In this document: piece after piece, positions 1-23,060 of the stretch | Position numbering within the stretch: position 1 is the first letter of the stretch | Layout of the letters: each line of letters starts with the position of its first letter | Assembly: GCF_016616885.1 (NCBI RefSeq) | Contig: NZ_CP067102.1 | Coordinates: forward strand, 1,640,501-1,704,500 | Origin: Bradyrhizobium diazoefficiens | Lineage (GTDB): Bacteria > Pseudomonadota > Alphaproteobacteria > Rhizobiales > Xanthobacteraceae | Length of the DNA: 64,000 nt | Reading direction: 5' to 3' | Notes under the pieces: generated by a model | Databases searched by the model: none | What the model saw: only the letters and a program-made list of their open reading frames with translations | What the model was told of the DNA's origin: nothing | Position numbers and translations under genes: made by a program

Positions 1-46
1 CCGATTAGTCGCGCAGGCGCATCGATCGGAAGGAGAATGCAAAGTT

Positions 47-1156
47 ATGAGCAACGTCATCAAGGCTCCCACATCAGCCGCAGCGGGCCGCGCAGCAACG
101 AAGAAGCAGTTGCCGGATCGGTTCAAAGGCTACAAACATGTCTGGGTCTTCGTCGAGCAGGAGCGCGGACAAGTGCATCCCGTCTCCTGGGAGCTGATGG
201 GGGCGGGCCGCAAACTCGCCGACAGGCTCAAGGTTAAGCTCGCGGCTATTGTCGTCGGCCCTGAGGGCGAGGCCACACGCAACGCCGCGCTCGAAGCCTT
301 CTGTTACGGCGCCGATTTGACTTATCTCGTGGCCGACAATGTGCTCTCGGATTATCGTAACGAGTCCTACACCAAGGCGCTGTCCGAGCTCGTGGAGATC
401 TACAAGCCCGAGATCTTGCTGTTAGGAGCAACAACGCTCGGCCGCGATCTTGCGGGCTCGGTCGCCACCACACTGCTGACTGGTCTTACCGCCGACTGCA
501 CCGAACTCGACGTCGATGCGGATGGCTCGCTTGCGGCGACCCGTCCGACCTTTGGCGGCTCGCTGCTCTGCACGATCTACACGTTGAATTACCGGCCACA
601 GATGGCAACCGTCCGCCCGCGCGTGATGCCGATGCCGGAGCGTGTCGCGCGCGATCCCGGCCGCATCATCGTCCATCCGCTCGGCCTGGTGGAAGACGAT
701 ATCGTGACCAAGGTTCTGTCGTTCATCCCCGACCGTGATTCGGCCAAATCCAATCTTGCGTACGCCGACGTCGTGGTCGCCGGTGGGCTTGGGCTCGGTT
801 CTCAAGAAAACTTTCAGCTTGTGCGGCAGCTGGCCGGCGTGCTCGGTGCCGAGTATGGCTGTTCCCGGCCCCTCGTGCAAAAGGGATGGGTCACCTATGA
901 CCGACAGATCGGCCAGACGGGCAAGACGATCAGGCCAAAGCTCTATATCGCCGCGGGCGTGTCCGGCGCGATCCAGCATCGGGTCGGCGTCGAGGGCGCC
1001 GATCTGATCGTCGCCATCAATACCGACAAGAACGCGCCGATCTTCGACTTTGCCCATATCGCCATCGTCAGCGACGCCATGCACCTGTTGCCGGCGCTGA
1101 CGGACGCGTTTCGGGCGCGGCTCTCGCCACATTCGCGCGACCGGATCGCGAGCTAA
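47..1156 (+). CDS. fixB: FixB, electron-transfer flavoprotein alpha-type subunit
   Basis: This 369-residue protein is the ETF-alpha homologue of the FixABCX complex, which moves electrons from NADH toward the low-potential ferredoxin/flavodoxin that feeds nitrogenase. The N-terminal half is the ETF adenine-nucleotide-like domain ([10 protein letters not shown] near residue 28). The C-terminal half carries the FAD-binding ETF-alpha signature: [11 protein letters not shown] near 245, SRPLVQKGW near 275, QIGQTGKTI near 288, SGAIQHRVG near 308 and [13 protein letters not shown] near 325. Length is normal for FixB. The ATG is preceded by AAGGAG at 31-36. It is followed 11 bases later by fixC and then by fixX, so the three form an operon. 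The upstream promoter lies outside the window, and no fixA is present here, as in bradyrhizobia where fixA sits apart. Confidence 0.97.
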
Positions 1157-1167
1157 AGGAGACTATC

Positions 1168-2475
1168 ATGATCGAGGAAAGGTTCGATGCAATCGTTGTC
1201 GGCGCCGGCATGGCGGGCAATGCGGCGGCACTGACCATGGCCAGGAAAGGCATGAAGGTGCTGCAGCTCGAGCGCGGCGAATATGCCGGATCGAAGAACG
1301 TTCAGGGCGCAATACTTTATGCCGACATGTTGGAAAAGCTGATCCCGGAGTTCCGGGAGGACGCACCGCTTGAGCGACATCTGGTCGAACAACGGTTCTG
1401 GATCATGGATGATCGCTCCCATGTTGGGCTGCATTACCGCTCGGAGGATTTCAATGAGGAGCGGGCTAACCGGTACACGATTATCCGGGCCCAGTTCGAT
1501 AGCTGGTTCTCCTCAAAAGTGCGCGAGGCAGGCGCGACCGTGCTGTGCGAGACCACCGTCACCGATCTTGCGCAGGATGCCTATGGCAGAGTCATCGGTG
1601 TTCGTACAGATCGCCAGGACGGCGAGATCCACGCAGATGTCGTGGTGCTGGCCGAGGGCGTGAACGGCCTGCTCGGCACGCGTGCGCGCCTGCGAGACCG
1701 CCCCAAACCTAACAAGGTGGCCCTCGCGGTAAAGGAAATGCACTTTTTGCCGCGCGAGACCATCGAAGCGCGTTTCAATCTGAGCGGCGACGAAGGCGTT
1801 GTGATCGAAGCTGCGGGTACCATTTCCGGCGGTATGACGGGGATGGGCTTCATCTACGCCAATAAGGAATGCATTTCGCTCGGGATCGGGTGTCTTGTCG
1901 CAGACTTCCAACGCACCGGACGGACACCCTACGAGCTGCTCGACCACTTCAAGCGCCACCCGTCGGTCGCGCCCCTGATCGAGGGGTCGGAGGTCAAGGA
2001 ATATTCAGCGCACCTCATCCCGGAGGGCGGCTACAAGGCAATCCCGCAGCTCTACGGAGACGGCTGGGTCGTGGTCGGTGACGCGGCGCAGCTCAACAAC
2101 GCCATTCATCGCGAGGGGTCCAACCTTGCGATGACGTCCGGACGGATCGCGGCCGAAGCGATCTTCCAGGTGAAATCGCGCCGGCTTGGCATGACCGCGG
2201 AAAATCTCGCGCTCTACAAGAGGATGCTGGATCGCTCCTTCGTCTTGAAGGACATGAAGAAGTACAAGGACATGCCGAGGCTGATGCATACCAACTCGCA
2301 AAACTTCTTTCTGACCTACCCCCAGCTCATCTCCAAGGCGATGCAGACCTACCTTCGGGTTGACGGTACGCCAAAGTCTGAGAAACAGAAGTCGACGCTG
2401 AAATCCTTTGTCAATGCGCGGTCCTGGACCGGGCTGTTCGGCGACGCATTCCGCTTCGCCCGCGCCTGGCGCTAA
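1168..2475 (+). CDS. fixC: FixC, FAD-dependent ETF:quinone oxidoreductase-like flavoprotein
   Basis: FixC (435 residues) is the flavoprotein of the FixABCX electron-bifurcating complex, related to ETF-quinone oxidoreductase. The N terminus has the Rossmann dinucleotide motif [12 protein letters not shown] (residues about 10-21) followed by an acidic strand end (LQLERGE). A second FAD motif, [15 protein letters not shown], lies near residue 300. The MTGMGF and [10 protein letters not shown] segments are typical of the FixC/ETF-QO family. The start has a strong site (AAAGGAG) 10 bases after the fixB stop. Length and motifs are intact and there is no sign of decay. Translation is likely coupled with fixB and fixX. 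Confidence 0.97.
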
Positions 2476-2511
2476 TTCTTTGAAACACAACTCGAATCAA
2501 CGAGGCTGAAT

Positions 2512-2808
2512 ATGAAAATCGAGCGATCAGTGCGTGTCGAAGACAAATTGTTTTGCAACCGCTATCTTGTGGACGCCGGACGTCCCCACATCAAGGTGCG
2601 TGCGCATACCAGGCCTTCGCCGCAGCTTCTTGCGCTTTTGAGAGCCTGCCCCGCGCGCTGCTATGACCTTAATGACAAGGGGCAGGTCGAGGTCACCGTC
2701 GACGGCTGCATGGAGTGCGGCACCTGCCGCGTCATCGGCGAGCCCACCGGCGACATCGAATGGGGCTATCCGCGTGGCGGATATGGGGTGTTGTTCAAGT
2801 TCGGGTGA
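2512..2808 (+). CDS. fixX: FixX, ferredoxin-like protein
   Basis: This 98-residue ferredoxin-like protein provides the iron-sulfur clusters of the FixABCX complex. The cysteines are in ACPARCYDL (about residue 45) and [11 protein letters not shown] (about residue 70). The C terminus ([16 protein letters not shown]) is the characteristic FixX ending. It lies 36 bases after fixC on the same strand and completes the operon. The ribosome site is weak (GAGGCTGA before the ATG). Family and length match well, with no alternative identity. Confidence 0.97.
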
Positions 2809-3557: not shown

Positions 3558-3563
3558 GTCCCC

Positions 3564-4118
3564 TCAAGCGACTTTCAACGTCTCCCCGCCGATCTCGCGG
3601 TTGCAGGGGCAGAGCTCGTCAGTCTGCAGGGCATCCAAGACGCGCAGCGTGTCCTTCGGGCTGCGACCGACATTGAGATTAGTGGCATAGACATGCTGGA
3701 TGGTATTCTCAGGATCGACAATAAAGGTCGTGCGATGGGCAACGCCATCGGCCGAGCGGCCGCCAAGACCGTCGACGAGCGCGCCGTCCGTGTCGGCAAA
3801 CTGCCAAATCGGCAGATGGTGCAGGTCCTTGTGCTCGCGCCGCCAGGCAAGCTTGCAGAACTCGTTGTCAGTCGAGCCGCCCAGCACGACCGCATCGCGG
3901 TCGGCGAAATCCTTCGCCAGGCGGGCGAATTCGGCGATCTCGGTCGGGCAGACAAAGGTGAAATCCTTAGGGTAAAAGAAGATGATCTTCCATTTCCCAG
4001 GAAAGCTCCCTTCGGTCAGCGTCTCGAATGCGCTCTGTCCCTTCTCTTCATGCAAGTGAAAGCCGGGCTTTACCCCGGTGATTTGGAACGACGGCAACTT
4101 ACTTCCAATTCCAAGCAT
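3564..4118 (-). CDS. ahpC: AhpC-type peroxiredoxin
   Basis: This 2-Cys peroxiredoxin of the AhpC/AhpE type reduces hydrogen peroxide and organic hydroperoxides in the cytoplasm. The peroxidatic cysteine is in KDFTFVCPTEIAEF (about residue 47), and the resolving cysteine is in the C-terminal ELCPCNREIGGETL. I chose the ATG at 4118 (MLGIGSKLPSF, 184 residues), which matches the family start; the frame stays open 16 codons further upstream. An RpoN-type promoter lies on the same strand at 4173-4188, giving a leader of about 45 bases. Downstream, 6 bases away, is the ruined ahpD. A peroxidase would suit the oxidative load of a microaerobic nitrogen-fixing cell, which is inference. Confidence 0.95.
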   Translation of the reverse strand: MLGIGSKLPSFQITGVKPGFHLHEEKGQSAFETLTEGSFPGKWKIIFFYPKDFTFVCPTEIAEFARLAKDFADRDAVVLGGSTDNEFCKLAWRREHKDLHHLPIWQFADTDGALVDGLGGRSADGVAHRTTFIVDPENTIQHVYATNLNVGRSPKDTLRVLDALQTDELCPCNREIGGETLKVA

Positions 4119-4172
4119 TGTGTCCCCACTGTGTACTTCGGGCGAAGCCCTCTGATCTCGCGCCATCAGCGA

Positions 4173-8511: not shown

Positions 8512-9191
8512 GTGCTCCTCCGTCCGAGGTATTTATCGATTAAGGTCAAGATCAGGATGACGGCAAAGGCGAACATCAACATGCCGCCGGCAACCAAGCT
8601 TGCCTCGTGCCAGCGTGATGCTTTGATATATTCGAAGAGAAAGGCGGACAGTACTTTGGTACGGCCAGGAATGCTGCCGCCAATCATCAGCACGATCCCG
8701 AATGCGGCGACTGTATGCGCGAAGCCAAGCACGGCGGCGGTAAGAAAAGCCGGTCGCGCCAAAGGTAGTGCGACCGTAAGGAAGGCATATGACGGAGAGG
8801 CGCGCAGAGTGGCCGCAACTTCCAGCGGTCTGTCGCCCATGGTAGTGAAGGCGTTGCAGATAGGCTGCACGACAACAGGCAGCGCGCTCAATACCGATCC
8901 GATAACGAGCCCTGCGAAGGCGAACGCAAGCGTGCGCTCGCCCCAGAGAGAGGCGAGCAGGCCGCCCGGACCGGTCGGGCCGAGCAAGGCCAGCAGATAG
9001 AAGCCGAGCACCGGTTGCGGCAGCATTGGTGGCAGTACGATGATCGTCGCCACGGCCTCGCTCCACGTGCTCTTCGAACGCGCTAGCCACCACGAAAGCG
9101 GCGTACCAAGTATCAAGAGGATCACGGTCGTGATACTCGCGAGCTCGATTGTTAGTCTGACCGACACCCAGATCTCTGAAAGGCCTTCCAT
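8508..9191 (-). CDS. modB: ModB-like molybdate ABC transporter permease
   Basis: This inner-membrane permease (about 227 residues, 5-6 hydrophobic segments) forms the molybdate channel. The family start MEGLSEIWVSVRLTIELAS at 9191 was chosen; the open frame runs further upstream only because it enters the decayed end of modA. The cytoplasmic loop that contacts ModC (RPLEVAATLRASP, about residue 125, with the following PLARPAFL) is present. Its last bases overlap the modC GTG. It appears intact although its binding-protein gene is broken. Confidence 0.92.
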   Translation of the reverse strand: MEGLSEIWVSVRLTIELASITTVILLILGTPLSWWLARSKSTWSEAVATIIVLPPMLPQPVLGFYLLALLGPTGPGGLLASLWGERTLAFAFAGLVIGSVLSALPVVVQPICNAFTTMGDRPLEVAATLRASPSYAFLTVALPLARPAFLTAAVLGFAHTVAAFGIVLMIGGSIPGRTKVLSAFLFEYIKASRWHEASLVAGGMLMFAFAVILILTLIDKYLGRRST

Positions 9192-9927
9192 GCGTGTCAA
9201 CTTTACGATTGCCGCACGGAACCGCGGCGCGCGATGCCTGCGTCCTTTGAGAAGATCGATGAGGGCGGGTCTACCCTTTAAGCCAGTCGCCAAAAGCGGC
9301 GTGCTGCCGGAGAGGATCAGGAGACTCCTGCGGTCCCAACCAGCAAGCGCCGGTTCCGCCATCCGTAAGCTCCGAAAGCGCGACGAATGTCGGCTTGACA
9401 TTGGCAGTCGCGGTAAATTGATTGGATTGCGTGTTCGTCGTCTCGACCCGCGCTTGTTGCATCGCTTCACGAACGCCGAGCGCTTTGATCTCTCTCGGTG
9501 GAGTTGGCTCAGGACACGGTGCGGCCGGATTGCAGGTACATGGTTTTGTCAAACAGGGGTTCTTCAGCGTCTTCGCACGACCCACAAAATCTACACTCGA
9601 TATCCACGGTAGGAAGCAGCTGGGCGCTTCTGTGAGGCAGCCGTCGGAATCCGCAAGATCGTTCTCAATCAATTTGCAAAGACAGAAGCGATTACTTGAG
9701 AGAAATTCCTGCAATGAGACGGTTTGTGTGATCTGCCTGAAAGACTCTTCGCTCGCGCCACAGCACACGATCGTCTCGTGCCGGCTCTTCGTTAGTGCCG
9801 TTCCAATCTCTTTGGTCTGCATCGGCGCATCCGTGGCGTGCGCCATGGTGATGTTCGCAGCTTCCGGATTTCCAACCACCAGAAGCATCGGAATGGAACT
9901 AATGAGGGAAAACCGGGCAAGCGTCAT
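9192..9927 (-). pseudogene. modA: Broken modA (molybdate-binding protein)
   Basis: The minus strand from 9927 gives a signal-peptide-like start (MTLARFSLISSIPMLLVVG), then degenerate ModA blocks: DAPMQTKEIGTAL, GASEESFRQIT, KLIENDLAD, ALGVREAMQQA, QFTATANVKPTFVALSEL. The sequence continues after a frameshift near 9300 as RPALIDLLKG, the usual ModA C terminus. Many substitutions and the frameshift indicate loss of function. The start has a good ribosome site (AGGAG 7 bases upstream) and lies about 55 bases after an RpoN promoter. It abuts modB, so the operon order was modABC. Confidence 0.8.
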
Positions 9928-9990
9928 TGCAGACTCCTGAGATGGGGCCGCTGCGACCACGCTGGCAACGGCGATTCTTTGCTCCATTCC

Positions 9991-11846: not shown

Positions 11847-13082
11847 ATGGATTTCACGGTATCGGCGAAACAGAAGGAATGGCTCGAGCGCGTGCAGTCC
11901 TTCATGACCAAGCACGTGCGTCCAGCAGTGCCAATCTATAACGAGCAGGACAAGAGCGGCGACCGCTGGAAGGTCATTCCGGTCCTCGAAGACCTCAAGA
12001 AGAAGGCGAAGGCCGAGGGCCTATGGAACATGTTCATGCCGCCGAACGAGCATGAAGATGATGAATTCCGCGGCGCGGGATTGACCAACCTCGAATACGC
12101 GCTGCTGTCGGAGGAGATGGGCCACATCTCCTGGGCCTCGGAAGTGTTCAACTGCTCCGCGCCCGACACCGGCAACATGGAGGTGTTCATGCGCTACGGC
12201 TCCAAGGAGCAGAAGCGCAAATGGCTGCGTCCGCTGATGGACGGCGAGATCCGCTCTGCCTTCCTGATGACGGAGCCGGCTGTCGCGTCGTCCGACGCGA
12301 CCAATATCGAGACCCGCATCGAGAAGGATGGCGATCACTACGTCATCAACGGCCGCAAATGGTGGTCGTCCGGCGTCGGCGATCCCCGCTGCAAGATCGC
12401 GATCCTGATGGGCAAGACCGATTTCAGCGCCGCAAAACATCAGCAGCAGTCGCAGATCCTGGTTCCGCTCGACACCCCCGGCATAAAGGTCGAGAAGATG
12501 CTGCCGGTGTTCGGCTTCGACGACGCGCCGCATGGCCATGCCCAGGTGCTGCTCGAGAACGTACGCGTGCCGAAGGAGAACATCCTGCTCGGCGAGGGTC
12601 GCGGCTTCGAGATCGCGCAGGGCCGCCTCGGACCGGGTCGTATCCACCACTGCATGCGCACCATCGGCAAGGCCGAGGAAGCGCTGGAGAAGATGGTGAA
12701 GCGTCTGATGTCGCGCACCGCCTTCGGCAAGAAGATCGTCGAGCATTCGGTGTGGGAGCAGCGCATCGGCGAGGCCCGCACCAACATCGAGATGACGCGT
12801 CTGCTCTGCCTCAAAGCCGCCGACATGATGGACAAGGTCGGCAACAAGACCGCGCAGGCCGAAATCGCCATGATCAAGGTCGCAGCTCCCAACATGGCGC
12901 TGAAGATCATCGACGAGGCGATCCAGGCGTTCGGTGGCGCCGGCGTTTCCGACGAAGCAGGGCTCGCGCGCGACTACGCGTCGGCGCGCACCATGCGTTT
13001 TGCAGATGGTCCCGATGAAGTGCATTACCGCGCTATAGCCAGATTTGAACTTCGCAAGTATGCCAACGGGTCGGTGAAATAG
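11847..13082 (+). CDS. Acyl-CoA dehydrogenase, ACAD10/11-like
   Basis: This FAD-dependent acyl-CoA dehydrogenase (411 residues) oxidises an acyl-CoA to the enoyl-CoA and passes electrons to an ETF. The N-terminal helical domain is followed by the FAD/substrate loop [18 protein letters not shown] (about residue 135), then [10 protein letters not shown] (about 168), the arginine-containing helix [12 protein letters not shown] (about 290) and the C-terminal [19 protein letters not shown]...DGPDEVH. The DGPDEVH ending is typical of the ACAD10/11 branch. The start has AAGGAG 9 bases upstream. It stands alone. Substrate is unknown; short- or branched-chain acyl-CoA is possible. Nearby hydratase, thioesterase and FixBCX genes suggest a shared acyl-CoA/ETF role, which is inference. 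Confidence 0.93.
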
Positions 13083-13401
13083 GTTCCTATGGGACCCCGA
13101 GAAACAGTCGGGGGCCCCACGTTGGCTGACGATATCTACAAGGACAAGGAGTGCTCAGCCAGAGGGGCTCACTCATTGTCACGCGGCCGAGCGCGGTGTT
13201 CTCTCGCTCTCGGTCTAAGCCAACCACGCCGGCCAGCGCAAGGTCCGACAAATGTTGTTTGTCGCTCGGGCGCGTGACGCTTCAATGGCTGTGACGAGTA
13301 ACAGCTCGTCTGATTACACGCCCGCGATGCATAGGGGGAAGTCGCAAACCGGACATGCGTCCTCAGGCGAATAACGCGCGTCCGATCATCAGTTGGCTTG
13401 C

Positions 13402-13417
13402 TGGCACGCGACTTGCC
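13402..13417 (+). promoter_or_regulatory. RpoN (-24/-12) promoter before MaoC-type gene
   Basis: TGGCACGCGACTTGCC matches the sigma-54 consensus at 15 of 16 positions with correct spacing, about 95 bases before the start at 13512. I searched 13180-13400 by eye for TGT-N10-ACA and found none, so the activator is uncertain. Confidence 0.7.
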
Positions 13418-13511: not shown

Positions 13512-14372
13512 ATGCCGATCAACTACAAACAGCTCATGGCCATGAAGAGGCTCGATCAGAGATACAGTTATGGGGACCGCGAGGCGATGCTCTACGCTTA
13601 TGCTATCGGCATGGGGGCCGATCCGCTAGATGAGAAGGAGCTTGCTTTTGTGAACGAGGCGAGAGCAACAGCGCGACCGCTGATGGTGGTGCCGACCTTC
13701 GCCTCGGTAGCTGCTTGGGGCGCGCGGCCCGGCGAAATGAATCTCACCCGCATGACGGTGGTCGATGGCGAGCGCGACATCACCTTTCACAGACCGCTTG
13801 CAATCGCGGCGGACATCACCGCGGATTCCTCGGTGCTTGCGGTGTTCGACAAGGGCAAAGACAAGGGCGCCGTGATCCGGCACCAGACCGTGCTGAAGAG
13901 CGCCGGCGGCGAATTGCTAGCGACGGTTGTCGCCTCAGTCTTCGCACGAGGCGATGGAGGATTCGGTGGGCCGTCGGAAGGCCAGCCCGAGCCGCATCAG
14001 GTTCCAACGCGCGCGCCTGACATAACATTTGATATTCCGACCCGACCCGATCAGGCACTCATCTACCGCTTGTGCGGCGACCGCAACCCGCTGCACTCGG
14101 ATCCGGAGTTCGCCAAACGCGCCGGCTTTCCCAGACCGATTCTGCACGGCATGTGCACCTATGGGATTACCTGCCGCGGCGTTTTGCAAAGTTACGCCGA
14201 TTACGACCCTGCTGCGTTCAAACGCCACGCGGCGCGGTTTTCCTCGCCGGTGTTTCCCGGCGAGACTGTGACACTGGAGTTGTGGAGGGATCGTGACGTG
14301 ATCTCGTTCGAGGCCAAGGTGAAAGCGCGCGGCGTCACGGTAGTCAAGAACGGCATGACGTTGCTCGGCTAG
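13512..14372 (+). CDS. MaoC-family (R)-specific enoyl-CoA hydratase, type 2-like
   Basis: This double hot-dog-fold protein (286 residues) probably adds water to an enoyl-CoA. The C-terminal half has the hydratase-2 signature: ALIYRLCGDRNPLHSDPEFA (catalytic Asp and His, about residues 180-200) and FPRPILHGMCTYG. The N-terminal half (about 10-130) is the second, non-catalytic hot-dog. The ATG has an AGGAGG site about 9 bases upstream. It lies 430 bases after the ACAD10/11-like gene on the same strand and has its own RpoN-type promoter. An enoyl-CoA hydratase beside acyl-CoA dehydrogenases fits beta-oxidation-like turnover. Confidence 0.9.
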   Translation: MPINYKQLMAMKRLDQRYSYGDREAMLYAYAIGMGADPLDEKELAFVNEARATARPLMVVPTFASVAAWGARPGEMNLTRMTVVDGERDITFHRPLAIAADITADSSVLAVFDKGKDKGAVIRHQTVLKSAGGELLATVVASVFARGDGGFGGPSEGQPEPHQVPTRAPDITFDIPTRPDQALIYRLCGDRNPLHSDPEFAKRAGFPRPILHGMCTYGITCRGVLQSYADYDPAAFKRHAARFSSPVFPGETVTLELWRDRDVISFEAKVKARGVTVVKNGMTLLG

Positions 14373-15242
14373 ACGGCGGACGTGGTTGGTGACCACAGGA
14401 TCGAGATCCTATCTCTAGCGACTCATCCCTTAGCAAATCGCGAGGCAGGTAAGGCCGAGCCCAGCTCACGCCGCGGATGGAGGTGAGCCGTGCGCAAAGC
14501 TGCTCGGCGCGAGAGCGCGTCTGTCGTGGTCAACGATCTCAGGAGGCCATAGGTCCGCCGCGGAGGCGCAGCTGACGGCGAACATGGTCGAGGCGATCAA
14601 CCCAAGAGTGGCCATGTTGTTGCCAATGGCGGAGAGACCAACGCCGAAGACGTCTGTGTTCCAACCATGCGATCAGACATTCGGCGCGGCGAGATGTCAA
14701 CGAGTTGGGTTCCCGGCAATCAGAGCTGTGATCTCACTGCCCATCACTCCTTGGGAGTGCGACGCTTTTAATATGCTCTGCCCTGAGATCTGCGCGCGCG
14801 GACCGAGCTTTGAACGCAGCTTCCCTGATCTGGTCGGGGGAGACCTCCGTAGAGACATATTATTGGCCTATTGAGCTTTCAGGAGCGCGAAGCGCGCAGC
14901 TCGCTCAGACGGCCAAAGTAGAACAAATCAGCGACTACTTGACCGTGAGTGTCCGTCAACACAGCGCTGCACTGTTCCGGTTGCCTCACGCACATTTCGG
15001 CGCTACTCGCAACTCTTTGCTGCAGCGCCATCCCGGCGATGTATGGAGTCGCTCCCCCAACATCCCGCAGCCAATCTTGTGCGACTGGCCGCGCCGCATG
15101 TTCTTTCCGGAAGCGCACGTGGCGGTTCGCGTCGAAGTTCCGACATTCGGTACAGGGCCGTCAGGTTCGAGACACCGGACGCTCTGAAGAGTTGTAGGAG
15201 TTTACAAAGCGCAATCAGTCGCCTAATGCGCGCTGATGCTGC
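14373..15242. other. Gap with no recognised gene
   Basis: About 870 bases without a recognisable coding region. Short inverted repeats follow the MaoC gene (GTGGT-TGGTG-ACCAC near 14380 and AGGATC-GA-GATCCT near 14398) and could help end transcription, though no T tract follows. Confidence 0.45.
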
Positions 15243-15258
15243 TGGCACGGTCGTTGCT
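15243..15258 (+). promoter_or_regulatory. RpoN (-24/-12) promoter before the M24/M20 gene pair
   Basis: TGGCACGGTCGTTGCT is a full consensus sigma-54 promoter. Its -12 region is part of an inverted repeat, CGTTGCTA (15252-15259) and TAGCAACG (15268-15275). It lies about 250 bases before the start at 15509. The only nearby TGT/ACA pair (15189) has an 8-base spacer, so no clear NifA site was found. Confidence 0.75.
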
Positions 15259-15508
15259 ATTGAGATGTAGCAACGCAGGGTGAGGCCGAGTGCGCGTAAG
15301 CGCGCAAGACTAGTATGCTCTTCTTTGAACCCGTGCCTGCTTCTGACAGAGAGGGATGATCGCGCATAAAGTTGTGCAACTTTTGGCAGTAGCTTTTGGA
15401 GAGCAACTTGGCGCTGTGCATCGGGTCCCTGACTTGGTCGATTGAGGTGGACAGCTGGCTGCGTGGAGAGCGTAAGTCTAATCTCGCCGGAAGCAATGGA
15501 GGTGAGTT

Positions 15509-16672
15509 GTGGCCATGACAACATTCTCCGCGAATACCTTGACCATTGTCCCATTCCCGCCCTCGGAGTACGAGCGCCGGCATCAGAAAGTGCTCGAGGC
15601 GGTGGATCGCGCTAAACTCGACGCTCTCTTGGTCACCGCGCACGGTCACCTCAGATACCTCACCGGATATCACGGATTTGGAGGGTACTTCGCGCCGTTC
15701 CCGTTGATCCTCGCGCCGGGGCGGCCGCCGACATACGTTGTCCGAGAATACGACGTGGAGGCGGTTCGCGCGGAGGGGTGCGTCGGCGAGATCGTCCCGT
15801 ACACCCACGAGAACGAGTTTGCGAAGGTCTGTAGTGATGTCCTTCGGCGGTATGGACTGCAGGTCCAGAGGGTAGGCCTCGAGCTCGGCTGCTGGAATCT
15901 CGCGCCGGCCGATGTGAGTGCACTTCGTGTGCAACTTCCCGACTTGAAGATCGCTGATGCGAGTCGTCTGGTAGCGTCGGTAGCAGCCGTAAAAAGCGAG
16001 CTGGAGCTCAAGGTGATGCGCGAAGCGATGACCATGACCGATCTAGCCGTGCGCACGTTTCAGAACTCACTGCACGAGGGCGTCACCGAGACAGAAATCT
16101 ACACGACCATTGTGGGAGAAGTGAGCAAGGTTGGCGGTGAACTTTGGCGGTCTTCTACCTTGGTATTCGGCGAGCGGACGAAGGTGCCGCACGGCAGTCC
16201 GATGCGCCATCCGATCCGAAGCAATGAGCCTGCGATGGTGGAAATCGGCGGCCTGAAGCACGGGTACGCCGCAGGGCTGGTCCGAGGCGCGGTGCTTGGT
16301 CGGCATCTTGAGACCGAATCTCTGCACGCCCTATCAGAGGAAGCCCTGGAAGCGGCAATTGCCGCGATCAAACCGGGCGTAGCCGCCGGTGCGGTGGACG
16401 CCGCCGCGCGTCAGGTGATCGAACGGGCTGGCCGCTCGCGGAGCTTTCGCCACCGCGCCGGATACCAAACTGGCATCCATTGGACGGAACGCGGTAACCT
16501 GAGCCTGGAGCCAGGAGCGGAAGACATTCTCGAGGCCGGTATGACCTTCCACATGCCATTCATTCTGTTCGGGGAAAGCGGCTACTTAAATGGGTGCAGC
16601 GAACACGTCGTGGTGACGGAGCGCGGCGCAGAAATACTCAGCAATACACCACATACCCTCTATCGCGCTTGA
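15509..16672 (+). CDS. Creatinase/ectoine-hydrolase-like M24 (pita-bread fold) hydrolase
   Basis: This 387-residue protein has an N-terminal creatinase domain (about 20-150, with LLVTAHGHLRYLTGYHG) and a C-terminal pita-bread domain (about 165-385). In metallopeptidases of this fold the metal ligands include two Asp in a DxG...GYxxDxTR pattern; here the segment is VEIGGLKHGYAAGLVRG, so both are missing. The RAGYQTGIHW and MTFHMPFILF blocks resemble creatinase and ectoine hydrolase (DoeA/EutD), which work without metal. A C-N hydrolase on a small guanidino, cyclic amidine or similar compound is therefore more likely than a peptidase. The GTG at 15509 has GGAGG 6 bases upstream. An M20 amidohydrolase follows 9 bases after the stop, so both probably act in one pathway under the RpoN promoter at 15243. 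Confidence 0.85.
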   Translation: MAMTTFSANTLTIVPFPPSEYERRHQKVLEAVDRAKLDALLVTAHGHLRYLTGYHGFGGYFAPFPLILAPGRPPTYVVREYDVEAVRAEGCVGEIVPYTHENEFAKVCSDVLRRYGLQVQRVGLELGCWNLAPADVSALRVQLPDLKIADASRLVASVAAVKSELELKVMREAMTMTDLAVRTFQNSLHEGVTETEIYTTIVGEVSKVGGELWRSSTLVFGERTKVPHGSPMRHPIRSNEPAMVEIGGLKHGYAAGLVRGAVLGRHLETESLHALSEEALEAAIAAIKPGVAAGAVDAAARQVIERAGRSRSFRHRAGYQTGIHWTERGNLSLEPGAEDILEAGMTFHMPFILFGESGYLNGCSEHVVVTERGAEILSNTPHTLYRA

Positions 16673-16681
16673 GTTCTAAGG

Positions 16682-17854
16682 GTGGCAGCCTTGCACAGCG
16701 TTGAAGCTTTTCGGCATTTGCAGCTCGAGGCAGTCGAGTGGCGCCGCTACCTGCACGAAAATCCCGAGCTCGACTATCGGCTATACAACACCGCGAGCTT
16801 TGTGGCAGCCAAGTTATCTTCGTTTGGTATTAGCTATATCGAAACGGGAATAGGGATAACCGGTATCGTCGCACTAATTCAAGGCAAAGGCGGAGAAGGA
16901 CGCACGATTGGGTTGAGGGCCGACATGGATGCCTTACCAATCATTGAAGCGTCAAATAGACCGTGGTCATCAAAAATTCCTGGCAAAATGCACGCATGCG
17001 GCCATGACGGTCACACGGCCATGCTGCTGGGCGCAGCAAAATACCTAGCGAACACCCGCAACTTCAAAGGCGCCGTTGCCTTGATCTTTCAGCCCGCGGA
17101 AGAAGATGGACTGGGCGGCCAAAGGATGGTCCAGGAAGGGATCATGGACCGTTTCGGTATCTCGCAGGTTTTTGGCATGCACAACGCGCCGGGCATGGAG
17201 GTAGGCAAGTTCGGTATTTGCGATGGGCCAATTCTGGCGGCGCTTGATGAGTTCGACCTAGTCGTGAAGGGCAGGGGTGGACATGCCGCGAAGCCGCAGG
17301 AGACGGTCGATCCGGTAGTGATTGCAGCACAAATCATTCTCGGCCTACAAATCTTGGTCTCGCGCAACACGAGCCCGATTGAGGCGCTCGTGATCTCTAT
17401 CACCAAGTTAAACGCGGCTCAGGCCTACAACATCATTCCCGATCACGTGGAAATGGCCGGCTGCGTTAGGACCCTCGTACCCGAACTGCGGGACTTCGCC
17501 GAAACACAGATTTTGGCATCCGCTCAAGGTATTGCGCGCGGATTTGGCGCGGATGTCGAGTTCAAGTACTGTCGATCCGGACCGGTCACCTTCAATCACA
17601 CGGAAGAGACCAATATGGCGATCAACGCGGCACGTAAGATCGTGGGGCCTGCCGGCGTGGACGACAAGATCAAACCGCGAATGGGCTCGGAGGATTTCGC
17701 CTATATGCTTGAGGCACGGCCGGGCGCCTTTATTTTTATTGGTAATGGATCGGCCGCCGGCTTGCATCACCCGGCATATGATTTCAACGACGAAGCCCTG
17801 CCTTATGGAATTGGTTATTGGGTGAACCTGGTCGAGACGGCACTCGCCGCATGA
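16682..17854 (+). CDS. M20-family amidohydrolase (hippurate / N-acyl-amino-acid hydrolase-like)
   Basis: This zinc amidohydrolase (390 residues) of the HipO/IAA-amino-acid hydrolase group cleaves N-acyl groups from amino acids or similar. Metal-binding motifs are intact: GLRADMDALP (about 78), HACGHDGHTAMLL (about 101), FQPAEED (about 138), FGMHNAP (about 165) and GSEDFAYML near the end. The dimerisation domain contains GRGGHAAKPQ (about 198). The GTG start at 16682 is 9 bases after the M24 gene stop, so the two are co-transcribed. Together they could hydrolyse a ring or guanidino compound and then deacylate the product, as ectoine breakdown does with different second enzymes. The substrate is unknown. 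Confidence 0.92.
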   Translation: MAALHSVEAFRHLQLEAVEWRRYLHENPELDYRLYNTASFVAAKLSSFGISYIETGIGITGIVALIQGKGGEGRTIGLRADMDALPIIEASNRPWSSKIPGKMHACGHDGHTAMLLGAAKYLANTRNFKGAVALIFQPAEEDGLGGQRMVQEGIMDRFGISQVFGMHNAPGMEVGKFGICDGPILAALDEFDLVVKGRGGHAAKPQETVDPVVIAAQIILGLQILVSRNTSPIEALVISITKLNAAQAYNIIPDHVEMAGCVRTLVPELRDFAETQILASAQGIARGFGADVEFKYCRSGPVTFNHTEETNMAINAARKIVGPAGVDDKIKPRMGSEDFAYMLEARPGAFIFIGNGSAAGLHHPAYDFNDEALPYGIGYWVNLVETALAA

Positions 17855-18497
17855 AGCCGAGTCGGGCGGAGTGGCCACATGCTTGATCCTCCCAAATTGT
17901 GCAGAGGCGCAAGAACGGCGCGTAGTTACAAAATCACGGCGTAAAGTTTTAAAAATGGTGCGGCTTCGGCTGGGACCGCTACTAGTTGACACTGTTGCGC
18001 ACCATCCTAAGAACTAGGCGCGCGAACTCGAACCGACCAAACGCCGGTCAGCGAAAAATCTGGGGGAAACGACCCGCTCGGCATAGTTCGGCGGCGGCAT
18101 GAACCGCCAAGCTCAATAGCATCGCCCCACAGGCTTGGCTTGCCGACGTGCTGGCGCACCTATCGGATCCTCCTGCCAAGCACATTCACGAACTGCTCCC
18201 TTGGAGTTGGCAGCCTCAAAGCATCGTCTATTCGGTGCTCGACGCGCGATATGCCCCCTGCGATGGCCCCAGCCGCCACCGCCCCAGCCGCCATGGCCGA
18301 AACCGCGCGGCTGAAGCCGCAGAGTGAGCGGCAACTTCCTCAGAAAGTTGCGGGCTCACGCCGCTTAAGCGCGATCGACCTTCCGCCAAAAACGGTCTAG
18401 CCGGGGGCCGTCGTCGGATGCGTACGTAGAGGCATGGCTGCGCGATATGAATCAAATGGCTTCCGTCTGTTCGGGCAGGGCTCGCACCGCTTCTTTA
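17855..18497. other. Gap with a strong hairpin
   Basis: No gene is recognised. The stretch holds a long hairpin at 18324-18359 (listed separately). Confidence 0.45.
18324..18359. repeat. Long imperfect hairpin
   Basis: GTGAGC pairs with GCTCAC, and inside it GCAACTT pairs with AAGTTGC around a 7-base loop, giving 13 paired bases. It is well downstream of the M20 gene. It may be a terminator, an end of a lost mobile element, or a dispersed palindrome. Confidence 0.5.
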
Positions 18498-18513
18498 CGG
18501 CACGCCGATTGCT
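18498..18513 (+). promoter_or_regulatory. RpoN (-24/-12) promoter before tesB-like gene
   Basis: CGGCACGCCGATTGCT matches the sigma-54 consensus except the first base, with correct GG-N10-GC spacing. It lies about 275 bases before the thioesterase start. No TGT-N10-ACA was seen between 18350 and 18490. Confidence 0.6.
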
Positions 18514-18787: not shown

Positions 18788-19648
18788 ATGCCAAAAGCCA
18801 TCATCGACCTACTCTCCATTCTCGACCTTGAACCGGTCGAAGTGAACCTCTTTCGCGGTACCAATCCGAACACCAGCTCGCAAAGGGTGTTCGGTGGCCA
18901 AGTGATCGGACAGGCCATAGCCGCGACATGCCGCACGGTGGAAGGGAGGCTGCCGCATTCGCTGCACTGCTATTTCATCCAACCCGGTGATCCACAGGTG
19001 CCCATCATCTACCAAGTCGAACGCCTGCGCGACGGCAAGAGCTATTCGACCCGGCGCGCTACTGCGATGCAGCATGGGAGAGCGATCTTCTCGATCATGG
19101 TCTCATTCCACGCCGACGAGGAGGGCGCCTTCAATCACCAGGACAAGATGCCGGAAGTCGAGCCGCCTGAAAAATTCTCGGCAGAGGAACTCTCCAGACA
19201 GCGAGTATTTTCCGAGATGCCGGAAATCATTCGCCGCTATTATGAACCTGACCGTCCAGTCGAATTGCGCCCGGTGGAGATTGGCCGCTATTTCGGTGAG
19301 AGTATCCACGACGGCCGCATTCACATCTGGATGAAGACCGCAGCGAAGCTGCCGGACGATCCGGCGTTGCACATATGCGCGTTGGCTTATGCCTCGGACT
19401 TATCACTGCTCGATGCGGTGATGGCGCGCTATGGCCGCACGCTGTTCGACGGGCGTATACTGTCGGGAAGCCTTGACCACGCCATGTGGTTTCATCGGAC
19501 ATTCCGCGCCGACGAGTGGCTGCTCTACGCGAAGGAGTCGCCAAGCGCTCAGGGCGGACGCGGCCTCACGCGTGGCCTGATCTTCAAACCCGACGGCACA
19601 CTGGTCGCTTCCGTCGCCCAGGAAGGCTCGGTACGCGAGCGACGTTAA
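18788..19648 (+). CDS. tesB: Acyl-CoA thioesterase II (TesB-like)
   Basis: This cytoplasmic double-hot-dog thioesterase (286 residues) releases free acids from acyl-CoA. TesB blocks present are LFRGTNPNTSSQRVFGGQVIGQA (about 22-44), LHCYFIQPGDP (about 60), the catalytic-Asp region ALAYASDLSLLDAVM (about 200), SLDHAMWFHR (about 225) and the C-terminal GLIFKPDGTLVASVAQEG with the family Gln. The length equals the E. coli TesB family length. The ribosome site is weak. Sitting between RpoN promoters and acyl-CoA dehydrogenases, it could recycle CoA during the same acyl-CoA metabolism. Confidence 0.93.
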   Translation: MPKAIIDLLSILDLEPVEVNLFRGTNPNTSSQRVFGGQVIGQAIAATCRTVEGRLPHSLHCYFIQPGDPQVPIIYQVERLRDGKSYSTRRATAMQHGRAIFSIMVSFHADEEGAFNHQDKMPEVEPPEKFSAEELSRQRVFSEMPEIIRRYYEPDRPVELRPVEIGRYFGESIHDGRIHIWMKTAAKLPDDPALHICALAYASDLSLLDAVMARYGRTLFDGRILSGSLDHAMWFHRTFRADEWLLYAKESPSAQGGRGLTRGLIFKPDGTLVASVAQEGSVRERR

Positions 19649-19953
19649 GCTTTCGCGCGCGTAAAAGTTACCGCTTCTACAGTCGCGCTCGTGGTTGCTA
19701 AGGCAGCCACGCTGCGCCCGTAGGCAATGCACAATTGCCTTTCTGAGCACAACAAACAAGGGTGCCGCGGATCGAGCCTGTCAGGTAAGTGGATTCCGAG
19801 AATGCATCTCGGATTTGGACTTGAAGAGTGGTGCAGGTTAGTCGAGATCTCCTTGCGTTGAGCGCGTCTCGCAGCTAACGGAAGTTCCGCCGCGCCTCCA
19901 CTTGCGCCAATATCTGCACCTATAGTGTTTTGCGGAATCCGACCGCTGATCCT

Positions 19954-19969
19954 TGTCCGATTTCGAACA
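19954..19969 (+). promoter_or_regulatory. NifA upstream activator site
   Basis: TGT-CCGATTTCGA-ACA fits TGT-N4-T-N5-ACA exactly. It is 100 bases upstream of the RpoN promoter at 20069, the standard NifA arrangement. Confidence 0.8.
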
Positions 19970-20068
19970 GCGGGCAATACCGCTGCAGAGTTCAAAACAA
20001 TGGTGCCATTTCTCGCATTCAAACTGTTTTCGAAGTGAATCAAGAGCTTTATGCTTTTTGAATGCGGT

Positions 20069-20084
20069 TGGCACGGCCGTTGCT
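20069..20084 (+). promoter_or_regulatory. RpoN (-24/-12) promoter before the acyl-CoA dehydrogenase pair
   Basis: TGGCACGGCCGTTGCT is a full consensus sigma-54 promoter with a NifA site 100 bases upstream. Its -12 region pairs with GCAACG at 20096-20101, at the same spacing as the repeat at the 15243 promoter. The first gene starts about 500 bases downstream. Confidence 0.85.
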
Positions 20085-20591
20085 ATTGAGAGGCGGCAAC
20101 GCCGAGTGAGGGGCCGAAATGCATTCGAACGTGCAGGACCAGCGACACTCTCGTCCTGCAGGGCTTCTCGTTTGAAAGAGAGCCGCACGCGAGGGAGCGG
20201 CCGCGCACGCTTTGTCAATCCGTTGATGGAGAGCAGCAACATGCTTTCAGCCAGAGAAATCGCGCTCTGTCGCAGAAATGCTAGAGAGAAATCGTACGCT
20301 TCCCAGGGCACGGGAATGGGATCGGCCGAGAAGGGCGCAAGATACTGTTGTATCGCGGGGATCTCTGGACGGGTTCGATGCTTTGCATCGGCCCGAAAAG
20401 ATGTTCGAAAATTTTACACGCGTCCTTTGCCCTTCGCCAGCCCTCGGCGGTACACTCCCCAGTTTGATTACATTGAGGCGGCCGCAATGGGCGATCCACA
20501 GCGCTTTCCGGCCGATCTCACCGCCGGTTTCGTACGCCTTAAATTTGCGATCTCGATGCTTCGGTATTGAAACTGCTCACAGGAGAATCTG

Positions 20592-21782
20592 GTGGATCTT
20601 GCGTTCACAAGGCAGGAGCAGGCGTTTCGTGAAGAAGTGCGGCAATTCCTGCGCGACAACGTGTCGCCGGAGATGCGGCGCAAGATGGTCGAGGGCCGCC
20701 ATGTCTCGAAAGAGGAGATGGTCGCCTGGTGGCGCATTCTCAATAAGAAGGGCTGGGGTGTCAGTCACTGGCCGAAGGAGTATGGCGGCACGGACTGGAG
20801 CTCGGTGCAGAACTACATCTTCAAGGAAGAACTGCAGATGTATCCAGCGCCAGTGCCGCTCGCCTTCGGCGTCAGCATGGTCGGCCCGGTCATCTACACC
20901 TTCGGTAACAAGGAGCAGAAGGAGAAGTACCTACCCCGCATCGCCAATGTCGAGGACTGGTGGTGCCAGGGGTTCTCGGAGCCCGGCGCCGGCTCGGACC
21001 TCGCTTCGCTGAAGACCAAGGCGGAGCGCAAGGGCGACAGGTGGATCATCAACGGCCAGAAGACCTGGACGACGCTCGCCCAGCACGCCGACATGATGTT
21101 CTCCCTCTGCCGCACCGATCCGTCGGCGAAGAAGCAGATGGGCATCTCCTTCATCGTCTTCAGCATGAAGTCGAAGGGCGTCACCGTACGTCCGATTCAG
21201 ACCATCGACGGCGGCCACGAGGTCAACGAAGTCTTCTTGGACAACGTCGAGGTGCCCGTCGAGAACCTGATCGGCGAGGAGAACAAGGGCTGGGACTACG
21301 CAAAGTTCCTGCTCGGCAATGAGCGTACCGGGATTGCGCGGGTCGGCGTCTCCAAGGAGCGGCTGCACCGCATCAAGGAGCTGGCCTCGAAGGTCGAGTC
21401 CGCTGGCCGCCCGATCATCCAGGACGCCGCCTTTCGCGAGAAGCTGGCGGCCTGCGAGATTGAGCTCAAGGCGTTGGAATTGACCCAGCTCCGCGTCATC
21501 GCGCAGGAAGGCAAGCACGGAATCGGCAAGCCCAATCCGGCGTCCTCGGTCCTCAAGATCAAGGGCTCGGAGATCCAGCAGACCACGACCGAGCTTCTCA
21601 TGGAAGTGATCGGCCCGTTTGCCGCGCCTTACGACATCCATAGCGACGACGGTACGAACGAGACCATGGACTGGACCGCCCAGATCGCGCCGAGCTATTT
21701 CAACAACCGCAAGGTCTCGATCTACGGCGGCTCCAACGAGATCCAGCGCAACATCATCGCCAAGGCGGTGCTGGGGTTGTGA
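20592..21782 (+). CDS. Acyl-CoA dehydrogenase, large-subunit type (PimC-like)
   Basis: This FAD-dependent acyl-CoA dehydrogenase (396 residues) resembles the large subunit of two-component enzymes such as pimeloyl-CoA dehydrogenase (PimC). Motifs are GFSEPGAGSDLASLKTKA (about 126), INGQKTWTTLAQHAD (about 153), NVEVPVENLIGEENKGW (about 218) and the C-terminal IYGGSNEIQRNIIAKAVLGL. The GTG start follows AGGAG by about 7 bases. A partner small subunit follows after a palindromic repeat at 21789-21882. A NifA-type promoter lies upstream at 20069. The likely substrate is a dicarboxylic or medium-chain acyl-CoA by family analogy. Electrons would pass to an ETF, and the nearby FixB is of that type (inference). 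Confidence 0.93.
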   Translation: MDLAFTRQEQAFREEVRQFLRDNVSPEMRRKMVEGRHVSKEEMVAWWRILNKKGWGVSHWPKEYGGTDWSSVQNYIFKEELQMYPAPVPLAFGVSMVGPVIYTFGNKEQKEKYLPRIANVEDWWCQGFSEPGAGSDLASLKTKAERKGDRWIINGQKTWTTLAQHADMMFSLCRTDPSAKKQMGISFIVFSMKSKGVTVRPIQTIDGGHEVNEVFLDNVEVPVENLIGEENKGWDYAKFLLGNERTGIARVGVSKERLHRIKELASKVESAGRPIIQDAAFREKLAACEIELKALELTQLRVIAQEGKHGIGKPNPASSVLKIKGSEIQQTTTELLMEVIGPFAAPYDIHSDDGTNETMDWTAQIAPSYFNNRKVSIYGGSNEIQRNIIAKAVLGL

Positions 21783-21788
21783 TGCGCT

Positions 21789-21882
21789 GTCATTCCGGGG
21801 CCCGCGGCAGCGCGAACCCGGAATCTCGCGCCGTCACCTGTGGATTCCGGGTCCACGCGCCAAGGCGCGCATCCGGAATGAC
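21789..21882. repeat. Bradyrhizobium-type repetitive palindromic element
   Basis: The 94-base element begins GTCATTCCGG and ends with its complement CCGGAATGAC, with internal GAACCCGGAATC and GATTCCGGGTCC also inverted. This is the appearance of the palindromic intergenic repeats frequent in bradyrhizobial genomes. It sits between the two dehydrogenase subunit genes and could form a stable RNA hairpin that alters their relative expression. Confidence 0.8.
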
Positions 21883-21917
21883 GGAACAAAAGTTTTGGGT
21901 ACGAGGAAGCAAAGAAC

Positions 21918-23060
21918 ATGGATTTTGATTTGAACGAGGAGCAGAGGCTCCTGAAGGACAGCATCGACGGCCTGCTGACCGATTGCTACGATTTCGAGAG
22001 CCGCAAGAAGTACATGGCGGAGAAGGGCGGCTGGAGCAAGGCCGTCTGGGGCAAGCTCGCGGAGCAAGGCCTGCTCGGCCTGCCCTTCGCGGAGGCCGAC
22101 GGCGGCTTCGGCGGCGGCGGCGTTGAGATCATGATCGTGATGGAAGCGCTTGGCAAGGCGCTGGTGCTCGAGCCGTATCTCGCAACTGTCGTAATCGGCG
22201 GCGGCTTCCTGCGGCATGCCGGCTCGGATGCGCAGAAATCGGCACATCTGCCGGGCATCATCGACGGCAGCAAGACGCTCGCATTTGCCCAGCTCGAGAA
22301 GAACTCGCGCTATGATCTCTTCGACGTCACCACGACCGCGAAGAAGAAGGGCGATGGCTGGGTCATCGACGGCGAAAAGTTCGTCGTGCTCAACGGCGAG
22401 AACGCCGACACGTTGATCGTCACCGCGCGCACCAAGGGCGACCATCGCGATCGTAATGGCATCGGTGTGTTCCTGGTCCCCGCCAACGCCGAGGGCCTGA
22501 AGAAAAAGTCATATCCGACCCAGGATGGCCTGCGCGCCGCCGACATCTCCTATTCGGGCGTCGAGGTCGGCGGGGAGTCGGCAATCGATGACCCCCAGGA
22601 TTCGCTCGCGCTGATCGAGCGCGTGGTGGATGGCGCCCGTGTCGCGCTGTGCGCGGAGGCGGTCGGGGCGATGGACGAGTCGCTCAAAACGACCGTCGAA
22701 TACATCAAGATGCGCAACCAGTTCGGGGTGGCGATTGGCTCCTTCCAGAGCGTGCAGCACCGCGCCTCCGACATGTTCGTGGCACTGGAGCAGGCGCGCT
22801 CGATGTCGATACTTGCGACGATGGCCGCCGATTTCGACGATCCCACCGAACGCTCGAAGGCGGTCGCCGCGGCCAAGGTGCAGATCAGCAAGTCGGGTAA
22901 ATTCATCGGGCAGCAGTCGATACAGCTCCATGGCGGCATTGGCGTGACCATGGAGGCCAAGATAGGCCACTATTTCAAGCGGCTCGCGATGATTGAAAAT
23001 ACCTTTGGTGATGCCAGTTATCATCTCCGTCACGTTGGTGCGAGCGGCACTCTGGTCTGA
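21918..23060 (+). CDS. Acyl-CoA dehydrogenase, small-subunit type (PimD-like)
   Basis: This 380-residue acyl-CoA dehydrogenase homologue resembles the PimD small subunit. It has FAQLEKNSRYDLFDV where full-length enzymes have the TEPxAGSD loop (about 122), WVIDGEKFVVLNGENAD (about 148), a helix region RNQFGVAIGSFQSVQHRASDMF (about 265) and QLHGGIGVTMEAKIGHYFKRL near the C terminus. The altered loop suggests it works as a heterodimer with the preceding gene. The start follows the palindromic element, with AGGAAG upstream. Expression from the 20069 promoter with the large subunit is likely. Confidence 0.92.
   Translation: MDFDLNEEQRLLKDSIDGLLTDCYDFESRKKYMAEKGGWSKAVWGKLAEQGLLGLPFAEADGGFGGGGVEIMIVMEALGKALVLEPYLATVVIGGGFLRHAGSDAQKSAHLPGIIDGSKTLAFAQLEKNSRYDLFDVTTTAKKKGDGWVIDGEKFVVLNGENADTLIVTARTKGDHRDRNGIGVFLVPANAEGLKKKSYPTQDGLRAADISYSGVEVGGESAIDDPQDSLALIERVVDGARVALCAEAVGAMDESLKTTVEYIKMRNQFGVAIGSFQSVQHRASDMFVALEQARSMSILATMAADFDDPTERSKAVAAAKVQISKSGKFIGQQSIQLHGGIGVTMEAKIGHYFKRLAMIENTFGDASYHLRHVGASGTLV

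Follow-up and report, generated by a model that had tools for sequence, protein, structure and literature searches.

Nif-type promoters before acyl-CoA enzyme genes in a Bradyrhizobium symbiosis island: a putative extension of the NifA/RpoN regulon

In Bradyrhizobium diazoefficiens, whose genome is a single contig of 8.09 Mb (NZ_CP067102.1), a group of genes for acyl-CoA metabolism lies beside fixBCX in the symbiosis island. The group falls within the first 24 kb of the 64,000-nucleotide stretch analysed here (positions 1640501-1704500; hereafter the window) and includes genes for an acyl-CoA dehydrogenase (acad), a MaoC-type hydratase (maoC), an M24 and an M20 hydrolase, the thioesterase TesB and the pimeloyl-CoA dehydrogenase subunits PimC and PimD. 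The locus raises the question of whether these enzymes are switched on by NifA and RpoN (sigma-54) together with nitrogen fixation, and which electron transfer flavoprotein (ETF) would accept their electrons. A preliminary description had proposed a nitrogen-fixation-induced acyl-CoA module that could feed, or compete for, the Fix ETF. Its regulatory part is upheld at the level of sequence by the recurrence of the promoter sites and by the nifH-type descent of two promoters, so that a predicted NifA/RpoN acyl-CoA regulon is well supported; the electron link to the Fix ETF is not upheld. The locus is quite likely a piece of the Bradyrhizobium symbiosis island in which the NifA/sigma-54 regulon has taken in duplicates of the housekeeping genes pimCD and tesB, together with a MaoC hydratase gene and the M24-M20 pair.

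Sigma-54 promoters and their nifH ancestry

The six -24/-12 promoters listed in the preliminary description, before ahpC, an open reading frame (ORF) in the modA position, maoC, the M24 gene, tesB and pimC, are all present (Table 1). The M24 and pimC sites have the full consensus, and CGG replaces TGG at the modA and tesB sites. The pattern TGGCACGNNNNTTGCW with at most one mismatch occurs 118 times in 8.085 Mb and 82 times when read backwards, so that a lone site means little. Seven of the 118 are located in positions 1-24000 of the window, against 0.35 expected, which is an approximately 20-fold excess; the seventh, at 23934, is tied to no gene. The sites were also related to mechanically called ORFs of at least 200 amino acids by means of a 13-point site score, with a distance limit of 550 bp and 320 kb of sampled chromosome as the background. 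A site scoring 11 or more was found for 7 of the 14 ORFs in the first 24.5 kb, for 5 of 206 in the chromosome and for 20 of the 317 elsewhere in the island; at 12 or more, the fractions were 3/14, 2/206 and 7/317. The first 24 kb hold five sites scoring at least 12 and four scoring 11 (4 and 20 in the sampled chromosome; 17 and 60 in the other 560 kb of the island). Correctly spaced NifA sites had been claimed for two promoters, and TGT-N10-ACA is indeed found at -101 of the modA site and at -116 of the pimC site, and at these only among the six. The chance of a correctly spaced NifA site is 2.1% per promoter site. Before the M24 gene, the NifA site is degenerate (CGT for TGT).

Of 50 bases, 42 are common to the cores of M24 and pimC. 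A single further place in the island aligns with both of them; it lies 5.2 kb to the left of the window and is the nifH promoter. The nifH gene encodes 294 amino acids, is seen in one full copy in the island and has two NifA sites. The region upstream of pimC is identical to this nifH at 147 of 212 positions (expectation value, E, 8e-17); the alignment spans the leader, the ribosome-binding region (Shine-Dalgarno sequence, SD), the ATG and the first codons, and the NifA site is also present. At the same place before pimC, Bradyrhizobium sp. Oc8 retains a longer piece of the nifH coding start (48/62 bases, about codons 15-35). A profile of the nifH 5' end, built from 34 of the 35 nifH loci collected, was scanned against 584 kb of the island and 320 kb of other chromosome. 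In the island, it matched nifH itself (E 5e-187), the region upstream of pimC (E 2e-40), that upstream of the M24 gene (E 6e-33) and, at a lower level, a short piece of nifH coding sequence at +196 kb (E 2e-5) and one further place at E 0.58. The 320 kb of chromosome gave no match at E 1 or below, and none of 55 letter-shuffled pimC leaders matched the profile at E 10. By these alignments, the pimC promoter derives from a decayed copy of nifH, of whose 5' end the NifA site, the -24/-12 element, the leader, the start and about 38 codons remain.

The M24 promoter is likewise identified by alignment, as the 5' end of a redoxin gene carrying a nifH-type promoter. The redoxin, a thioredoxin-like protein of about 400 amino acids, was named from its sequence. 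The region before the M24 gene aligns with redoxin loci elsewhere over the activator region, promoter, leader, SD, start and about 20 codons. Among 20 loci with the nifH promoter and leader that were fetched from other genomes, 13 lie before redoxin (L240-L242 and L247-L256, the reading frame of L250 looking broken) and seven before nifH; the redoxin gene of other Bradyrhizobium genomes is a plausible NifA target. Since a redoxin 5' match stands before the M24 gene and a broken redoxin 3' part lies at 10.3-11.0 kb, the M24-M20 pair most probably stands downstream of the cut-off 5' end of such a gene. The two protein matches of the 3' part (E 1e-17 and E 1e-15) cover overlapping stretches. A nifH origin was also considered for the maoC, tesB and modA promoters and rejected, the best match to nifH or redoxin leaders having E 0.028; the one strong match on the modA side is the redoxin coding remnant and not a leader.

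Recurrence in relatives and the history of pimCD

A search for the same promoter-gene pairs in other Bradyrhizobium had been suggested as a check of the regulon, and the pairs do recur: at pimC in 14 genomes, and at tesB and maoC in some relatives. Among 265 genomes, at least 20 contain a pair of PimD matches with E values no higher than 1e-150, a count that is a lower bound because seven candidates were scored per genome. When duplicates and loci with fewer than 300 bases upstream were excluded from the loci fetched, 73 distinct pimC upstream regions were available for comparison. A site scoring 12-13 lies 245 to 533 bp upstream of a pimC copy in 14 genomes (the window, Oc8, G034, G059, G079, G080, G088, G096, G124, G129, G145, G154, G199 and G247). 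Among the other 59 regions, the highest score is 11, reached by one. The 14 copies were recognised by their sites, so that 14/14 is no independent test; the nifH leader is one, as 10 of the 14 leaders match the nifH profile at E 2e-7 or better and none of the 59 others does at E 1e-3. A second type of leader precedes pimC in G059, G124, G154 and G199; these are 71-91% alike among themselves, and no match to this type was found in the window's island. A NifA site is present near the cores of pimC, or of the transporter gene described below, in some other genomes. Tentatively, and with slightly less than even confidence, pimCD may have been drawn into the NifA regulon at least twice by the capture of unrelated promoters, a dead nifH 5' end in 10 genomes and the second leader type in four.

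The genome has a second pimCD pair at 1.2475 Mb, without a -24/-12 site. The window PimC is 89% identical to this second PimC versus 81% to the Oc8 island copy, although the two islands agree at 96% in maoC and acad next to it. Trees place the window copy with relatives of the own-genome second copy and the other island copies elsewhere, with mixed support, and tests for one clade of island pimCD did not reject a single origin (p 0.31 and 0.35). These trees hold six of the 14 promoter-bearing copies as island rows; the copy of G247 (L296) is present under the label of chromosome, which for the remaining rows is a presumed one given by the author. Named plasmids yielded no carrier of pimCD (best plasmid match 66%), and a plasmid search with TesB gave at most 61%.

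The wider gene order is kept in Oc8, apart from the M24-M20 pair: ahpC, the genes in the modCBA position, acad, maoC, tesB, pimC and pimD follow one another as in the window, with sites identical at ahpC and maoC and of full consensus at pimC. In G126, fixBCX, ahpC, modCB and maoC are found together with remnants only of acad; the ahpC site differs by one base and the maoC site scores 11. Among 80 maoC loci obtained by protein search, Oc8 alone has a site of 10 or more, the others reaching at most 9, and no other window gene is nearby in 79 of the 80 that come from named genomes. In G034, G079 and G080 (GC content about 0.58), tesB and pimCD each have sites scoring 12-13, and in G154 a site of 12 precedes pimCD; these four genomes have maoC, tesB, M24 and M20 all together. 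The 16-bp tesB core is kept with at most two changes in the window, in Oc8 and in three of four M24-M20 clusters, most flanks being unalignable, and is missing in the fourth cluster. An ATP-binding cassette (ABC) transporter gene has a nifH-derived promoter in three genomes (E 1e-13 to 7e-12), located at 64209 of G079:C72, at 30499 of G034:C64 (+80000) and at 96542 of G080:C14. In at least two genomes, this gene is divergent from one resembling an oxidase that uses flavin adenine dinucleotide (FAD), and a mandelate-racemase-like gene stands between tesB and pimC in these genomes; both names were given from the look of the sequence.

Gene content and coding integrity

Most gene names of the preliminary description agree with Pfam or NCBIfam profiles, namely those of the AhpC-type, MaoC, M24, M20, TesB, PimC, PimD and FixB, FixC and FixX proteins. 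PimC and PimD both exceed the NCBIfam equivalog cut-offs, an assignment by sequence profile. The name modA had to be given up: at E 0.001, neither Pfam nor NCBIfam gives a match for ORF 9271-9987, the ModA profile gives only E 0.2 (13.3 bits versus a cut-off of 62.5), and the clear modA of the genome is located at 7.69 Mb. The true start of ahpC is probably further inside its ORF, because the promoter core ends 6 bp before the ORF start. Window TesB passes one family cut-off and falls below that of PRK10526 (281.7 bits, cut-off 481); a second tesB copy, with 80% DNA identity to that of the window, lies at 0.318 Mb of the same genome. A chromosomal copy of which maoC would be a duplicate was not found, the own-genome DNA search, with two candidates scored, having matched only the locus itself and the second tesB. 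Ectoine catabolism (DoeA/DoeB, EutD/EutE) was rejected for the M24-M20 pair, the proteins being below the family cut-offs (M24, 144/575 and, for TIGR02993, 122/613 bits; M20, 321/550 bits). An unannotated relative of the M20 protein (82%) adjoins the ectoine-utilisation genes eutBC on plasmid p172_1 of Bradyrhizobium sp. 172 (L365).

The ratio of nonsynonymous to synonymous substitution (dN/dS) against Oc8 is 0.08 for acad, 0.20 for maoC, 0.13 for tesB, 0.12 for pimC and 0.18 for pimD. It is 0.17 for maoC against G126, and 0.14, 0.16 and 0.11 for pimC, pimD and tesB against the second copies in the same genome. Of the 298 PimC positions that do not vary among 58 comparison copies, 285 are retained in the window, as are 210 of the 223 PimD positions that do not vary among 57. 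The low dN/dS suggests that acad, maoC, tesB, pimC and pimD encode working enzymes. The modB alignments give 0.61 with one stop for Oc8 and 0.24 with two stops for G126; because of these stops and the degenerate modA, the modABC genes of these islands look to be decaying.

Table 1. Coordinates of genes, remnants and promoter sites in the first 24 kb of the window
Feature	Position	Strand	Evidence
fixB	47-1156	+	Pfam ETF/ETF_alpha
fixC	1168-2475	+	Pfam FAD oxidoreductase
fixX	2512-2808	+	Pfam Fer4_ETF_QO; PRK15449 76.7 bits, below cut-off 166
ahpC-type peroxiredoxin	3564..4166	-	PF00578 88.7 bits; dN/dS 0.13 versus Oc8
ahpC -24/-12 site	4189-4173	-	ATGGCACATCGCTTGCT
modC	7345-8511	-	ABC_tran+TOBE
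modB	8508-9470	-	BPD_transp_1
Degenerate or highly divergent ORF in modA position	9271..9987	-	No Pfam/NCBIfam match
-24/-12 site of modA-position ORF, weak (CGGCACG)	10007-9991	-	GCGGCACGCCGCTTGCT; NifA site at -101
Redoxin-gene 3' part, remnant	10294..10994	+	DNA match E 1e-13; protein matches 34-35%
Acyl-CoA dehydrogenase (acad), no -24/-12 site of its own	11847..13082	+	PF00441/02770/02771
maoC -24/-12 site	13401..13417	+	CTGGCACGCGACTTGCC
MaoC-type two-domain hydratase (maoC)	13512..14372	+	PF01575, PF22622
Redoxin-gene 5' end before M24	15104..15466	+	267/369 identities, E 1e-46, to redoxin loci elsewhere
Copied nifH-type promoter and 5' leader before M24	15118..15412	+	nifH 5' profile E 6e-33
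M24 -24/-12 site	15242..15258	+	CTGGCACGGTCGTTGCT
M24 peptidase-fold hydrolase, ectoine-hydrolase-like	15509..16672	+	PF00557, PF01321
M20 amidohydrolase	16682..17854	+	PF01546; TIGR01891 342.8 bits versus cut-off 153.75
tesB -24/-12 site	18497..18513	+	ACGGCACGCCGATTGCT
tesB, acyl-CoA thioesterase II	18788..19648	+	TIGR00189 293.5 bits versus cut-off 292.85
Decayed nifH 5' end before pimC	19939..20358	+	nifH 5' profile E 2e-40
pimC -24/-12 site	20068..20084	+	TTGGCACGGCCGTTGCT
pimC, pimeloyl-CoA dehydrogenase large subunit	20592..21782	+	TIGR03204 842 bits versus cut-off 623.85
pimD, pimeloyl-CoA dehydrogenase small subunit	21918..23060	+	TIGR03203 744.8 bits versus cut-off 652.7

One more -24/-12-like site, CTGGCTCAAACCTTGCA, is present at 6338-6354, about 120 bp before a small ORF, and has near-identical counterparts in Oc8 and G126. 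The ORF is presumably cold-shock-like, a name given from the look of its sequence. A search of window 1-24000 for conserved RNA families gave no Rfam match at gathering scores.

Competing explanations, electron flow and meaning

Expression of the island acyl-CoA enzymes is probably induced along with nitrogen fixation, because nif promoters precede their genes and two of these promoters are leftovers of nifH or of a gene with a nifH promoter. In the proposed scheme, NifA and RpoN would turn the set on in bacteroids; PimCD and the extra acyl-CoA dehydrogenase would then produce enoyl-CoA, MaoC would hydrate it and TesB would free acyl chains from CoA. The predicted route of the electrons leads through the housekeeping EtfAB and ETF-quinone oxidoreductase rather than FixAB. 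As substrate, a medium-chain or dicarboxylic acyl-CoA may be guessed from the PimCD name and from the role of the pim operon.

Several observations weigh against recruitment of the whole set. No TGT-N10-ACA was found about 60-250 bp upstream at maoC, tesB or ahpC, and NifA control appears weaker for ahpC, maoC, tesB and the M24 gene, because an intact and correctly spaced site is missing there. To this are added the CGG-for-TGG replacements at tesB and modA and the degenerate modA itself. Oc8 lacks the M24-M20 pair and has only a 29% relative of the M24 protein; the 40 kb fetched from G126 contain no intact acad, tesB or pimCD; and the tesB sites beside M24-M20 in three other genomes score only 10. 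Second pimC copies without a site occur in G015, G060, G067, G185 and G240, out of the 20 genomes with two PimD, and in G031 by PimC search, and G248 has one pimC only. Finally, the window pimCD appears closer to the own-genome second copy than to the other island copies, so that its history is not one of simple inheritance shared with them; replacement by the chromosomal type, or separate recruitment, is possible.

The sites could be fossils, promoters of dead nif-type genes in a decaying island whose downstream genes are silent cargo. Decay is indeed evident nearby in the degenerate modA, the modB stops of the relatives, the redoxin and nifH remnants and a broken copy of true pimCD outside the window (+180610..+182215). 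The coding sequences, however, have low dN/dS and keep their invariant residues, and the pimC and M24 cores hold the full consensus though their leaders have diverged to about 70%. The core is also kept in the 14 promoter-bearing copies, a set chosen by having it. Silent cargo is accordingly an unlikely state for these genes. It is also improbable that sigma-54 transcription is activated here by an enhancer-binding protein other than NifA. The genome does contain seven sigma-54 activator domains at E below 1e-50, and four of the six promoters are without an intact NifA site; against this stand the nifH ancestry of two promoters and the NifA sites at the window pimC and near some pimC and ABC transporter cores elsewhere.

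Acyl-CoA dehydrogenases need an ETF, and FixABCX is an NADH-driven bifurcating complex. The island dehydrogenases might pass electrons to FixAB or compete for it, with a direct effect on the electron supply of nitrogenase, given that fixBCX is an island neighbour at a distance of 9 to 20 kb and that FixB is an ETF-alpha by Pfam. Acyl-CoA dehydrogenases dock at a recognition loop of ETF-beta, which in the human protein is PRYATLPNIM and spans Pro189-Met198 (PMC4148887). The chromosomal EtfB has this loop as PRYASLPNIM; FixA has IRRGAMADAL at this place and thus lacks it, which turns the preliminary suggestion of feeding or competing for the Fix ETF into a very unlikely one. Outside the window, the island contains three more PimC/PimD-like pairs (+95292..+97658, +119964..+122330 and +185236..+187602), which share 55-60% identity with that of the window. 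Among the sites listed, the nearest of score 12 or more is 4 kb from the third pair. The first pair is followed by a conventional etfB copy at +97.9..+98.6 kb (L260), 97.6% identical to the chromosomal etfB over residues 1-205 and with one internal stop, and an island etfA copy (L264), 90% identical to housekeeping etfA, lies at +103.0..+104.0 kb. The adjoining etfB also argues against the Fix ETF, and nearness to fixBCX is better explained by common membership in one symbiosis island. That the six sites are chance matches is hardly credible in view of the local excess, the nifH leader homology and the recurrence in relatives, even if the one-mismatch pattern is mostly noise genome-wide; in our view, chance is refuted for the pimC, M24 and maoC sites, and not for the modA site.

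Parts of this arrangement have counterparts among known systems. Reiterated nifH promoters before other genes were described in Sinorhizobium meliloti and Rhizobium trifolii in the 1980s; unlike here, these copies reportedly precede nif, fix or unidentified genes. The pim operon of Rhodopseudomonas palustris serves dicarboxylate degradation. Its PimC and PimD have equivalogs by NCBIfam in the window, where, unlike in that operon, only pimCD is found, as a second, island copy behind a NifA-type promoter. The closest parallel is in Mesorhizobium loti R7A, where a table in PMC3538637 has an entry "nifH frag, msi321-320" whose -24/-12 sequence equals that of nifHDKENX. The msi321::lacZ fusion there falls from 319.8 Miller units in the wild type to 11.7 in the last column, taken to be the nifA2 mutant, and the expression reported for nifA mutants fits direct activation by NifA-RpoN (PMC3538637). 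In both organisms, a symbiosis island has accessory metabolic genes that follow a nif gene fragment with its -24/-12 promoter. The M. loti case differs in genus and in genes (methyltransferase, P450), and the main text of PMC3538637 uses none of the words acyl-CoA, thioesterase and dehydrogenase; in Bradyrhizobium, unlike in M. loti, 10 genomes show the arrangement in front of pimCD, and four more have a second, non-nifH promoter there. As in the known Bradyrhizobium NifA and sigma-54 regulon, ahpC and mod genes stand behind sites in the window: ahpCD and modA are given as members in B. diazoefficiens (PMC6515984, citing Hauser 2007), and ahpC and modABC as predicted members in Bradyrhizobium (PMC4999443). 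The main texts of these two papers contain neither "acyl-CoA" nor "thioesterase".

Strict word combinations in the open-licence literature gave no match joining pimeloyl-CoA dehydrogenase, bacteroid and Bradyrhizobium, or acyl-CoA dehydrogenase, thioesterase, NifA and nodule. Promoter capture as a kind is already known from M. loti; as far as such searches reach, what is new is that in Bradyrhizobium it recurs before acyl-CoA genes and that a promoter of a second type precedes these genes as well. Hidden NifA targets could be found by scanning islands for fossils of the nifH leader rather than for the 16-bp core. If pimCD was captured more than once, this would be a convergent hijacking of promoters, in which acyl-CoA dehydrogenation would be needed in bacteroids exactly when nitrogenase is made, probably for a shared acyl substrate derived from the plant or from membranes. 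The sequence evidence points to acyl-CoA metabolism as a recurrent NifA target in Bradyrhizobium. A symbiosis island may in this way bring housekeeping metabolism under its control: a duplicated gene of the chromosome comes to lie behind a dead nif gene and inherits its nodule-specific switch.

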